From the IMG/VR virus record IMGVR_UViG_3300025508_000148, positions 1-24,353 of that record: a stretch of DNA of 24,353 nucleotides; one strand, 5' to 3'. The position numbers and the translations under genes are program-made. Origin of the DNA: a virus. Of this stretch, positions 16,364-18,320 are shown piece by piece; the stretch's first letter is position 1, and the number at the start of each line of letters is the position of its first letter. The notes beneath the pieces are model-generated. The model was not told where the DNA came from. It ran no database searches and saw nothing but the letters and a program-made list of their open reading frames with translations.

Positions 16364-16387
16364 TAAAAAGCCCGCGGTAGCGGGCTT
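16364..16387 (-). terminator. Intrinsic terminator of cassette A
   Basis: An 8-bp stem (AAGCCCGC/GCGGGCTT, loop GGTA on the plus strand) ends in TTTTT on the minus strand. It lies 19 bp after the stop of the 87-residue gene. It shares the GCGGGCTTTTTATTGC sequence with two other terminators (16758-16780 and 17815-17837). The opposite strand has TTGTTTT after the stem, so it may act weakly both ways. Confidence 0.85.
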
Positions 16388-16405
16388 GTTTTATCGTTTT
16401 GAGCG

Positions 16406-16669
16406 TTATGATTCGGCTTGCTGCCTTTCCCGGGCGTTGTCTAGTTGTCTCTGCATCAGGTCGATTTTAGCAGCAAGGATGTGCCGGCGCGCTTCTTCAA
16501 GCGCTCGTTCCTCTGCGATAATAGTGTCTAGCATATCGATAGTCTCTGATAGTTTAGCTACGGCGTTACCTTCGCGGCCGCACGATAGCATAAAGCCTGC
16601 TAGCATCAGTTTAGCCCGCATGATCTCGGTGTTAGTTCGGCTGTCATCCTGCTTGTTTACTATTGTCAT
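16406..16669 (-). CDS. Helical hypothetical protein of cassette A, 87 residues
   Basis: The ATG at 16669 follows GGAG by eight bases; a longer upstream frame only reads through the promoter. The product is polar at the N-terminus (MTIVNKQDDSRTNTEIMRAK), has a short hydrophobic stretch (LMLAGFMLSCG), then a long charged helix (DTIIAEERALEEARRHILAA, KIDLMQRQLDNARERQQ) predicted to form a coiled coil. I recognise no family. It is the only gene of a self-contained cassette with a consensus promoter, hairpin leader and terminator, an arrangement typical of moron-like accessory genes. Function is unknown. Confidence 0.72.
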   Translation of the reverse strand: MTIVNKQDDSRTNTEIMRAKLMLAGFMLSCGREGNAVAKLSETIDMLDTIIAEERALEEARRHILAAKIDLMQRQLDNARERQQAES

Positions 16670-16694
16670 ATTGTTTACTCCGTTGTGTAAGTGG

Positions 16695-16711
16695 CCACCT
16701 TCGCCCGGTGG
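16695..16711 (-). promoter_or_regulatory. 5' leader hairpin of cassette A (GGGCGAA loop)
   Basis: Close to the predicted RNA start, CCACC pairs with GGTGG around a GGGCGAA loop. It is followed by ACTTACACAACGGAG, which contains the ribosome-binding site. Leaders at 17753-17768 and 18265-18285 share the loop and the ACxxACRCAA segment but have different, still paired stems. Confidence 0.65.
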
Positions 16712-16718
16712 TGACCCC

Positions 16719-16746
16719 AGTATACTAATTATCTTATACGTGTCAA
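16719..16746 (-). promoter_or_regulatory. Promoter of cassette A
   Basis: TTGACA (16741-16746) and TATACT (16719-16724) are separated by 16 bases on the minus strand. The spacer and -10 (TATAAGATAATTAG, then TATACT) are identical to those of the cassette B promoter. This is a strong sigma-70-type match. Confidence 0.85.
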
Positions 16747-16757
16747 ATAATAGGCAA

Positions 16758-16780
16758 TAAAAAGCCCGCATCAGCAGGCT
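16758..16780 (-). terminator. Intrinsic terminator of cassette B
   Basis: AGCCTGC pairs with GCGGGCT (one G-U pair, loop TGAT) and is followed by TTTTT and ATTGC on the minus strand. It lies 22 bp after the stop of the cysteine-rich gene and 11 bp before the next promoter. Confidence 0.85.
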
Positions 16781-16801
16781 AGTTGATCGGGACCGAAGGG
16801 G

Positions 16802-17545
16802 TTATTGGTTACCTATATCACCTGCCACGTGGTGGCGTAAGATAGAACCAGGTGGCAGTGATTTGACAAAGCGCGCCAGCTTTTCTGCATCCGTCTCATC
16901 GACCTGGTCTGCATTAGATGTAGCGTCCCAGTGTAGTCGCACCCGCCCGCCGTCTGCATAGCATCCGCCTGAGGTGTCAGGGTCAGCCGCTTTAGCTTTT
17001 CCCGCCCCGTGTGCAGTAAACCCGATAATGAATGATCGGTCCGACCTGGCACACAATGGCGCACCATCACCGCATTGTGCGCAGGACATCTCGCGGTATT
17101 CGGCAGGACATCTAACTACCGGAACAGTCGAGCCTTCCTTAAATACGCCATCAGATCCAAATATCCCCAGTAGCTGGGCGTTTGTGGTTTTACCATTATC
17201 CCAAGCATCTGGCGCCACGACTGTAACAGTAGGGACATACCGCGACGATAACGCAGCACTAGTCAGGTCCTTGGCGGAATAGTTCACAACGGTTTGGCCC
17301 GCGCTTACAAGGTGCGCCCAGTCTTGCCAGTCAAAATGGGAGTAAGTGAACGACACCCCACGGCGCGGCACTGCTTTTAATAACGCGGCAAAATATACCG
17401 GATCGATTTTATCGGCGCCGGTGCCGGTACAATTAAGCTCACAAGTCTTAGGGCACGTCGCATACTTGTCGCCGTCGCCTGCTCGGTAGGTCACTGCTAT
17501 GCCCCGGGTTTTTACTGCGCCGCTCATTGCTACTGTTTTTAGCAT
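16802..17545 (-). CDS. Cysteine-rich phage protein of unknown function (cassette B)
   Basis: The ATG at 17545 follows GGGGGA, giving 247 residues; the longer upstream frame is less likely. Two cysteine groups stand out: C31, C35, C39 (CPKTCELNC, spacing Cx3Cx3C) and C146, C155, C158, C165 (RCPAEYREMSCAQCGDG...LC), plus C195. The second group is followed by RSFIIGFTAHGAGKAKA. KTRGIAVTYRAGDG and VPRRGVSFTYSHFDWQDW are other conserved-looking parts. I recall similar cysteine-cluster proteins in phages, without a proven role. The cysteines could hold a Zn or Fe-S site. The Cx3Cx3C spacing differs from the radical SAM Cx3Cx2C. It overlaps the upstream 62-residue gene by 7 bp. Confidence 0.78.
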   Translation of the reverse strand: MLKTVAMSGAVKTRGIAVTYRAGDGDKYATCPKTCELNCTGTGADKIDPVYFAALLKAVPRRGVSFTYSHFDWQDWAHLVSAGQTVVNYSAKDLTSAALSSRYVPTVTVVAPDAWDNGKTTNAQLLGIFGSDGVFKEGSTVPVVRCPAEYREMSCAQCGDGAPLCARSDRSFIIGFTAHGAGKAKAADPDTSGGCYADGGRVRLHWDATSNADQVDETDAEKLARFVKSLPPGSILRHHVAGDIGNQ

Positions 17546-17727
17546 GTTATATCCCCCGCGCATTCTTGAAAGGTGAAGCCGCCGCCAACATCGCATCCGA
17601 TACTGTACGCCCGGCCAAGACTAACGCCCTGGCTATATAAAAGGGCGGCCTGGTCCCGCGTAAGCGGGGAGCTTATAAAACCATGGCGCGCAAAATCCTG
17701 CGTAAGCTCGTTAATATAGTTTTCCAT
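17539..17727 (-). CDS. Small hypothetical protein, 62 residues (cassette B)
   Basis: The ATG follows GAGG in the cassette B leader. The sequence starts MENYINELTQDFARHGFISS, continues with DQAALLYSQGVSLGRAYSIG (25-44) and ends GDITC. No membrane helix, signal or known domain is evident. The DQAALLYSQGVSLGRAYSIG part is probably helical. It shares a transcript and a 7-bp overlap with the cysteine-rich protein, suggesting related functions. Nothing further can be said from sequence. Confidence 0.65.
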   Translation of the reverse strand: MENYINELTQDFARHGFISSPLTRDQAALLYSQGVSLGRAYSIGCDVGGGFTFQECAGDITC

Positions 17728-17752
17728 TGTAATTCCTCGTTGTGTTAGTGGT

Positions 17753-17768
17753 CCAGCTTGCCCGCCGG
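17753..17768 (-). promoter_or_regulatory. 5' leader hairpin of cassette B (GGGCAA loop)
   Basis: CCGGC pairs with GCTGG (one G-U pair) around a GGGCAA loop, followed by ACCACTAACACAACGAGG with the ribosome-binding site. The stem differs from cassette A while the loop and downstream motif are kept. Confidence 0.65.
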
Positions 17769-17775
17769 TTTCTTG

Positions 17776-17803
17776 AGTATACTAATTATCTTATACCTGT
17801 CAA
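17776..17803 (-). promoter_or_regulatory. Promoter of cassette B
   Basis: TTGACA (17798-17803), 16-base spacer and TATACT (17776-17781) on the minus strand. Apart from one base next to the -35, it is identical to the cassette A promoter. Confidence 0.87.
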
Positions 17804-17814
17804 CTCCAAAGCAA

Positions 17815-17837
17815 TAAAAAGCCCGCTTGTGCGGGCT
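17815..17837 (-). terminator. Intrinsic terminator of cassette C
   Basis: A perfect 7-bp stem (AGCCCGC/GCGGGCT) followed by TTTTTATTGC on the minus strand. It lies 9 bp after the stop of the 47-residue gene. Confidence 0.88.
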
Positions 17838-17845
17838 GGTGGTAT

Positions 17846-17989
17846 TCATTTCCTCCTTACGATTCTACGCCTAGACCTCGGCCTCGGCCCCGGACTCGGT
17901 GACCGGGTCCTGTTTCTGTTCTGCTCATAACGCTCTACGTTTTCTTTTCCGTACCATAGCTTAGACAGCCACCCAAATATAAAAAACAT
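17846..17989 (-). CDS. Small hydrophobic-start, Arg-rich protein, 47 residues (cassette C)
   Basis: The ATG lies eight bases after GGGAG, and the frame exactly fills the space between the preceding stop and the terminator. The N-terminus is hydrophobic and aromatic (MFFIFGWLSKLWYG). The C-terminus is rich in Arg, Ser and Pro (RTRSPSPGPRPRSRRRIVRR). The DNA coding this tail is GC-rich and internally repetitive (CTCGGCCTCGGCCCCGG), recalling the large repeat array. A membrane-interacting or nucleic-acid-binding peptide is conceivable. No family is recognised. Confidence 0.6.
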   Translation of the reverse strand: MFFIFGWLSKLWYGKENVERYEQNRNRTRSPSPGPRPRSRRRIVRRK

Positions 17990-17993
17990 CAGT

Positions 17994-18239
17994 CTAGCTC
18001 CCTAGTGTGTCGCTGTCTTCAGCCTGTAGTTTTTGCGCCAGCTGATCGATTGCGTACATCACTGCGCGGTATTCTTCGTCGCCAGGTGTTACCGGGACGC
18101 CATCAATATCAAGCAGGGCGCCGTCTGAGTGAATGCCAAACATATCCTGGTCACCTTCTACCTCCATCCCATACCAAGACACCAGGCCGTCAGATCCGTT
18201 GTCATCTATTGAAAGGAATTGTACGTTTGAAATGTTCAT
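17994..18239 (-). CDS. Acidic hypothetical protein, 81 residues (cassette C), related to the gene at 21219-21716
   Basis: The ATG follows GAGG by seven bases in the cassette C leader. The N-terminal 40 residues (MNISNVQFLSIDDNGSDG, SWYGMEVEGDQDMFGIHSDG) align well with those of the protein at 21219-21716 (MKIDNVKYSHLTITSG, NWFEMELDGKFALFAIHTDD). The two share a small beta-rich domain. The rest is acidic and helical (DEEYRAVMYAIDQLAQKLQA). Function is unknown; the duplication suggests a conserved accessory role. Confidence 0.7.
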   Translation of the reverse strand: MNISNVQFLSIDDNGSDGLVSWYGMEVEGDQDMFGIHSDGALLDIDGVPVTPGDEEYRAVMYAIDQLAQKLQAEDSDTLGS

Positions 18240-18264
18240 ATTGTTACCTCATTGCGTAAGTTGG

Positions 18265-18285
18265 ACCAGACTTTGCCCGTCTGGT
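18265..18285 (-). promoter_or_regulatory. 5' leader hairpin of cassette C (GGGCAAA loop)
   Basis: A perfect 7-bp stem (ACCAGAC/GTCTGGT) closes a GGGCAAA loop, followed by CCAACTTACGCAATGAGG with the ribosome-binding site. It is the best-paired of the three leaders and shares loop and downstream motif with the other two. Confidence 0.7.
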
Positions 18286-18291
18286 TATGCG

Positions 18292-18320
18292 ACTTTATGC
18301 GATTACTCTGGGGATATCAA
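18292..18320 (-). promoter_or_regulatory. Possible promoter of cassette C
   Basis: TTGATA (18315-18320), 17-base spacer and TAAAGT (18292-18297) on the minus strand, inside the end of the nuclease gene. It is weaker than the A and B promoters and is placed like them just before the leader hairpin. Confidence 0.5.

Follow-up and report, generated by a model that had tools for sequence, protein, structure and literature searches.

A structured RNA leader heads predicted, exchangeable gene cassettes between terS and terL of uncultured aquatic phages

Introduction

Phage morons are genes with their own promoter and terminator that are inserted between conserved genes, vary in presence and, when expressed from a prophage, often benefit the host. 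At the RNA level, bacterial 5'-terminal stem-loops are established to slow end-dependent decay, and rrn leaders, the boxA-boxB (nut) leaders of lambdoid phages and the put leaders of HK022 are known antitermination systems. Here we describe an array of gene cassettes, each preceded by a hairpin leader, that lies between the packaging genes terS and terL in the virus record IMGVR_UViG_3300025508_000148, analyzed at its full length of 24,353 bases and referred to below as the window.

The initial annotation of this DNA had proposed a moron architecture, and the cassettes fit that description in outline only. They have a predicted promoter and terminator of their own (the promoter of one being weak), are variably present between conserved genes, and their rare small open reading frames (ORFs) are probably accessory; they differ in that they form an entire array whose members share an RNA leader, and in that one of their genes, encoding DUF7227, recurs across the phage group and is probably not accessory.

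The nearest analogue is found in cluster K mycobacteriophages, where, as far as the available text of two reports goes (PMC3203893, PMC12699233), a 13-bp start-associated sequence (SAS) is supplemented in its extended form (ESAS) by 17-bp imperfect repeats, with little support, according to the authors, for an mRNA hairpin. As in our locus, a group-specific, repeated inverted-repeat element is described there just 5' of the start codons of many unrelated small genes, whereas the leader reported here has a covarying short stem, a constant loop, and a promoter and terminator for each unit. Membership fails on sequence: the consensus GGGATAGGAGCCC given near start codons in the available text (PMC12699233), with its 17-bp inverted repeats, was not seen by eye in 46 aligned leaders. 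Repeated phage gene-start headers are therefore already known, and what is new here is the structured RNA leader together with complete transcription units. We found no description of this leader, or of parS beside a phage terL, in the open-licence literature, which says little about subscription journals.

The reading that we consider the probable one, with some reserve, is that the array consists of independent transcription units with exchangeable genes, in which a 5' hairpin protects the mRNA and presents the ribosome-binding site.

Results

The window contains three units on the minus strand, transcribed in the order A, B and C; in each, a hairpin leader precedes one or two ORFs, and a terminator closes the unit (Table 1). 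The two near-identical promoters and three terminators listed in the initial annotation are all present, and TerS (PHROG 51) and TerL flank the units as it had stated. Promoters B and C each match 11 of 12 consensus positions, which makes them the top two of 11 promoter-like sites in the window (shuffle mean 6.6). They have in common the 19-mer TATAAGATAATTAGTATAC, which occurs exactly twice in the window (0.01 copies expected; two copies in 0 of 100 shuffles), and the surrounding blocks are 76% identical across a 103-nt alignment; the three terminators all share GCGGGCTTTTTATTGC. The proposed series of three promoter-leader-gene-terminator cassettes is complete for B and C, but the promoter of A is weak (9 of 12 positions). 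Likewise, the expectation of small genes is borne out by ORFs of 47, 62, 81 and 87 amino acids, but not by every cassette gene, since the middle unit encodes the 247-residue DUF7227 protein. A structure model of this protein (mean predicted local distance difference test score 71) had no PDB match at E<=0.001 and a single viral match, itself DUF7227, and PADLOC returned no match for the seven proteins submitted.

Comparison among relatives identifies the leader as a true structured RNA of this phage group. It is a hairpin with the apical loop G(G/A)GCAA that adjoins the -10 element and lies upstream of a CTACGGAG-like Shine-Dalgarno sequence. Hairpins with a GGGCAA loop followed by a Shine-Dalgarno sequence and a start codon occur at 53 sites in 86 sources, compared with an average of 2.6 when every ordering of the six letters is considered and 9 for the next best. 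From 66 sites found by regular expression we removed 20 (coding matches, the duplicate contig L028 and truncated ends), leaving 46 aligned leaders, from which 22 with a six-base loop were picked for covariation analysis. In these 22 leaders the stem is 95.5% paired, both sides change in 5 of 6 pairs, and double-change cells number 31, compared with 8.4 after shuffling and at most 11 in slid controls. The covariance model built on them yields 71 matches at E<=1 in the 86 sources, a number that includes these 22 sequences themselves. A search that made no use of the stem found 211 sites, 178 of them with two closing Watson-Crick pairs (88 unique), and at pairs 3-5 of the 88 unique hairpins 222 of 264 cells are Watson-Crick, 20 are G-U and 10 are A-C. 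Among the 33 sites without both closing pairs, several keep G(G/A)GCAA in an otherwise paired hairpin or have a wobble pair. Upstream, the hexamers and spacer are strongly conserved in 22 unique promoters.

At the gathering score, Rfam gave 0 matches in the window and 0 in 10 leader-bearing loci; three sub-threshold matches at terminators were weak and judged to be chance. Possible base-pairing between the loop and the tails or loops of terminators was inspected by eye and discounted, since the window does not preserve it. In one relative (L078, 4392-5515), three cassette terminators have a common loop region, CCATTGTG. Elsewhere in the window (23560-23640), on the plus strand, opposite to the genes, a GGGCAA-loop hairpin is followed by CTTACACAACGAGG and an ATG, and the other strand is terminator-like. 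In DUF932 leaders (L050 293-344, L031 3490-3520) the hairpin right after the -10 element is itself terminator-like and perhaps ends the upstream gene while leading the next one.

The leader and its cassettes belong to a large group of uncultured aquatic phages. Of 138 loci counted (41 others, comprising duplicate contigs, L002, L003 and L088-L117, being left out), 78 contain a total of 157 leaders. All but three of these 78 encode TerS, TerL or another group marker, and the remaining three (L119, L126, L155) share cassette genes with marker-bearing loci. The proteins encoded behind the leaders fall into 29 clusters, of which at least K13 and K19 are chance coding matches; named families include DUF7227, DUF932 and GP88. 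A match at E<=0.1 is present in 16 of 31 whole records, and all 21 matches with E<0.001 lie at most 5.5 kb upstream of terL, on the same strand as terL. When IMG/VR was scanned with a pattern of the commonest leader, 62 stretches were found, and a search of the same database with the DUF7227 protein of the window found a single match, the locus L001.

The loop is far more constant than the stem and is kept before many unrelated genes. Protection of the 5' end alone does not explain this constancy, and we therefore kept two rival readings. In the first, the G(G/A)GCAA hairpin would be bound by an RNA-binding protein of the phage, a translation repressor or activator through which all cassettes are switched together. 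DUF7227 leaders with their own promoter are in keeping with such a switch, as they often have GGGCAA between the Shine-Dalgarno sequence and the ATG, free of any hairpin (L010, L027, L031, L066). However, no candidate protein was identified, the DUF7227 model being without a confident PDB match; some hairpins at the leader position do not have a GGGCAA-type loop; and one locus (L082) has a leader but no DUF7227 between terS and terL. We regard this protein-binding role as possible, though on the improbable side.

Comparisons between loci support the view that relatives have gained and lost cassettes, have changed their order and have refilled them with other genes. L001 and the window are 97-98% identical on both sides of a break that coincides exactly with the leader hairpin of cassette A; at this point L001 carries an extra 423-nt stretch with a 124-amino-acid ORF that is flanked on each side by a copy of the 3' portion of the leader, AAACCCACAACGGAGAA. 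This ORF, present in L001 and absent from the window at the same place, has the variable presence of a moron. Across 35 loci with both terS and terL we counted 15 marker-gene arrangements, including loss of DUF932, F4 or F6 as well as reversed orders (F4/F6 in 7 of the 37 loci with both, F1/F3 in 3 of 50). Sliding identity, run on six locus pairs, revealed in L068 and L078 an F6 header at 88-95% identity, parts of the F6 body at 40-70%, and a stretch from terminator to terL at 85-100%. Of the other pairs, L157/L171 is near-identical throughout, L072/L085 has no drop in F6, L145/L177 drops behind F6, and the two pairs with L160 are noisy. The idea of the initial annotation that the locus is an exchange site for accessory genes is thus supported: between terS and terL, relatives keep the same boundary blocks around differing genes, rather than the same three genes with no variation.

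Homologous recombination within the blocks, also put forward there, is plausible. Exact runs of at least 20 nt between headers occur in 26 of 102 within-locus pairs, compared with 5.1% of 682 cross-locus pairs from different clusters, and the longest run within one locus reaches 63 nt. Moreover, in 38 of 45 comparisons the F4 and F6 segments from hairpin to Shine-Dalgarno sequence resemble each other more closely within a genome than across genomes. Full homogenization of headers was rejected, since the F4/F6 promoters are more alike within genomes in 20 of 45 comparisons and the DUF932 and F4 headers in none of 15; the claim held for the hairpin-to-Shine-Dalgarno segment.

That promoter similarity is no higher within than between genomes, and that the DUF932 header type follows its gene, would also be expected of ordinary repeats, in which strong promoters and terminators are alike through shared regulation or old duplication and gene turnover is unrelated to them. 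Such an origin appears unlikely to us given the breakpoint at the leader in L001, the replacement of a gene body between conserved blocks in L068 and L078, and the within-locus excess of long exact matches. The cassette-like behavior, with a hairpin at each unit, also recalls site-specific recombination of single-stranded hairpins in the style of integron cassettes. There, an attC-type site lies 3' of the gene, whereas here the hairpin is 5' of each gene, between promoter and Shine-Dalgarno sequence and in one orientation; no integrase was present among the proteins scanned, a partial test; and G-U pairs exceed A-C pairs, if weakly. We consider an integron-like process highly improbable.

Relatives of the window also have a larger leader, mostly before genes upstream of terS, in which a further hairpin (I) directly precedes the GGGCAA hairpin in 24 of 24 leaders from seven clusters. 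Hairpin I, in 16 distinct sequences, has 38 double-change cells compared with 11.6 after shuffling, a count that includes two K9 rows shifted by one column and two misaligned rows with longer loops; "further pair types" are not above shuffles. Among the 26 boxA-like sites in all 138 loci, 17 lie at most 22 nt after a GGGCAA-type loop, and a loop is nearby at 9 of 138 control places (a number that equals that of the loci by coincidence).

These observations bear on the second rival, in which the leader would be a processive antitermination site, with a boxB-like hairpin and, in the larger form, a boxA, that allows polymerase to read through the terminators of the cassettes and on into the terL operon. 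The covarying hairpin I and the proximity of boxA-like sites to the loop speak for it, and a hairpin followed by boxA is the order of rrn leaders. Against it, boxA matches are no better than shuffles in the main cassettes (K0, K1, K2) or in the leaders of the window, whose one boxA-like site lies outside them; K4 tandem leaders have no boxA; the gene behind one tandem leader, in L078, is closed at once by its own strong terminator; and the search for an N-like protein was confined to the families scanned. The window has no tandem leader. Known nut (PMC11893012), rrn and put leaders resemble the larger leader in placing hairpins and a boxA-like sequence right after the promoter, but, in the part of that source available, nut differs in loop, element number and order, and the window leaders have no significant boxA. 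Antitermination is thus, in our estimate, a doubtful role for the cassette leaders. When we looked for a bacterial counterpart of hairpin plus boxA, seven genome-contig matches proved by context to be coding or chance, with no common leader; those in Marinobacter and Oleiphilus fall in the same stretch of one gene.

The packaging and structural genes of the window are on the minus strand. By its TerL, which is 58-64% identical to those of 023Pt_psg01, HTVC027P and DSL-LC04 (63-64% for HTVC027P and 023Pt_psg01), the phage is kin of HTVC023P-type podoviruses. The TerL proteins of HTVC023P, HTVC027P, 023Pt_psg01 and DSL-LC04 are 55-64% identical to that of the window, but no leader match was obtained in any of the four complete records. 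Megablast of the window against the phage collection gave no match, and the available part of a paper on uncultured HTVC023P-type pelagiphages (PMC9599517) does not mention promoters or DUF932.

Between cassette C and terL (15950-16330), the window has a GC-rich stretch (about 70%) of degenerate short repeats (GGACC and TGCGCGG words), at the place where many relatives carry palindromes that we take, in name and consensus, to be bacterial parS. Of the 89 loci whose sequence extends far enough, 57 have exact copies (TGTTTCACGTGAAACA, TGTTCCACGTGGAACA) in the 250 nt upstream of terL, and 26 have two, spaced 24 bp apart in 21 cases; only 9 copies occur elsewhere in 1.04 Mb. The window has none, allowing up to 2 mismatches. 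These terL-proximal palindromes could recruit host ParB.

Table 1. Positions of cassette features, flanking genes and related elements (window coordinates unless a locus is named)
Feature	Position	Strand	Basis or remark
Weak promoter candidate A	18292..18320	-	9/12 consensus positions; TCGCATAAAGTCGCATAA stretch kept in L001
Leader hairpin A, ACCAGAC-GGGCAAA-GTCTGGT	18265..18285	-	Fold; site of 423-nt insertion/deletion relative to L001
Cassette A gene 1, 81-amino-acid ORF	17994..18239	-	ORF list; L001 comparison
Cassette A gene 2, 47-amino-acid ORF	17846..17989	-	Counterpart in L001
Terminator closing cassette A	17815..17837	-	Terminator prediction
Promoter B, TTGACA/16/TATACT	17776..17803	-	Consensus scan; shared 19-mer
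Leader hairpin B, CCGGC-GGGCAA-GCTGG	17753..17768	-	Fold; covariance model of relatives, E 7.6e-6
Cassette B gene 1, 62-amino-acid ORF, 7-nt overlap with DUF7227 gene	17539..17727	-	ORF list and relatives
Cassette B gene 2, DUF7227 (PF23872), 247 amino acids	16802..17545	-	E 6.8e-29; start set by homology
Terminator closing cassette B	16758..16780	-	Terminator prediction
Promoter C, TTGACA/16/TATACT	16719..16746	-	Consensus scan; shared 19-mer
Leader hairpin C, loop region GGGCGAA, then ACTTACACAACGGAG and ATG	16693..16716	-	Fold; covariance model, E 0.66
Cassette C gene, 87-amino-acid ORF, no family	16406..16669	-	ORF and family scans
Terminator closing cassette C	16364..16387	-	8-bp stem, T tract; contains shared GCGGGCTTTTTATTGC
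terS (flank)	18625..19296	-	PHROG 51, E 8e-9
terL (flank)	14249..15757	-	TerL protein identity to named phages
Nuclease-like ORF (flank)	18303..18764	-	PHROG 93 endonuclease, E 7.8e-6; PHROG 2165, E 5.6e-12
parS palindromes	L031 5933-5972; L066 5933-5972 and others		Just upstream of terL
Tandem hairpin and boxA-like leader, relatives	L031 598-659; L174 459-545; L147 10950-11011		

Discussion

Modular units, a covarying hairpin with a constant loop adjacent to the -10 element, and gene turnover at the blocks are evident in the sequences of these phages, and we infer that the predicted promoters and terminators act as such. Combining these features, we favor a 5'-terminal leader that protects mRNA and presents the ribosome-binding site over a protein-binding or antitermination site. 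In the model that we propose, a cassette would comprise an upstream terminator, a sigma-70-type promoter, the hairpin, a G-poor unpaired linker, a strong Shine-Dalgarno sequence, one or two genes and a terminator. The hairpin, which begins at, or a few bases from, the predicted transcript start, would close the mRNA 5' end against end-dependent decay and keep the linker and ribosome-binding site single-stranded, such that any gene placed behind it may be expressed; the constancy of the loop suggests additional recognition of the hairpin by a protein. Because every gene would have the same type of header and a terminator, genes could enter or leave the array, change their order or be replaced while the packaging genes stay undisturbed, with the conserved blocks as likely crossover points, whether two related phages recombine or two blocks within the same genome.

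Several observations weigh against this reading. The window leaders have modest fold z-scores alone (-1.8 to -2.0), and the covariance model of the relatives is weak on leader C (E 0.66), with leader A falling short of E 1, so that the case for the hairpin comes from the relatives. The excess of G-U over A-C pairs favors an RNA over a DNA structure weakly, being a weak test. Promoters, transcript starts and terminators are sequence predictions throughout, and four loci (L077, L079, L018, L019) carry some of the same genes with no GGGCAA hairpin upstream. With regard to crossover, the blocks of the window itself are exactly identical over only 21 nt, and the DUF932 header is homogenized with its F4 neighbor in 0 of 15 cases; header type thus partly follows the gene, and it may be entire cassettes that move, with no crossover inside the blocks.

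A more speculative proposal, which we advance tentatively, is that an RNA-directed regulator encoded by the phage, an antiterminator or translational switch, recognizes the hairpin and thereby controls a plug-in array. Gain of a header would then amount to entry into a regulon, and the tandem hairpin-boxA leader upstream of terS would be the full form, of which cassette leaders are reduced forms.

With a standard expression header and a terminator on each unit, the array described here would give a concrete anatomy for how small genes are taken up and swapped in uncultured aquatic phages. The structured leader can serve as a search handle for listing accessory genes in such phages, and as a defined RNA on which 5'-end protection, protein binding and antitermination may be tested.

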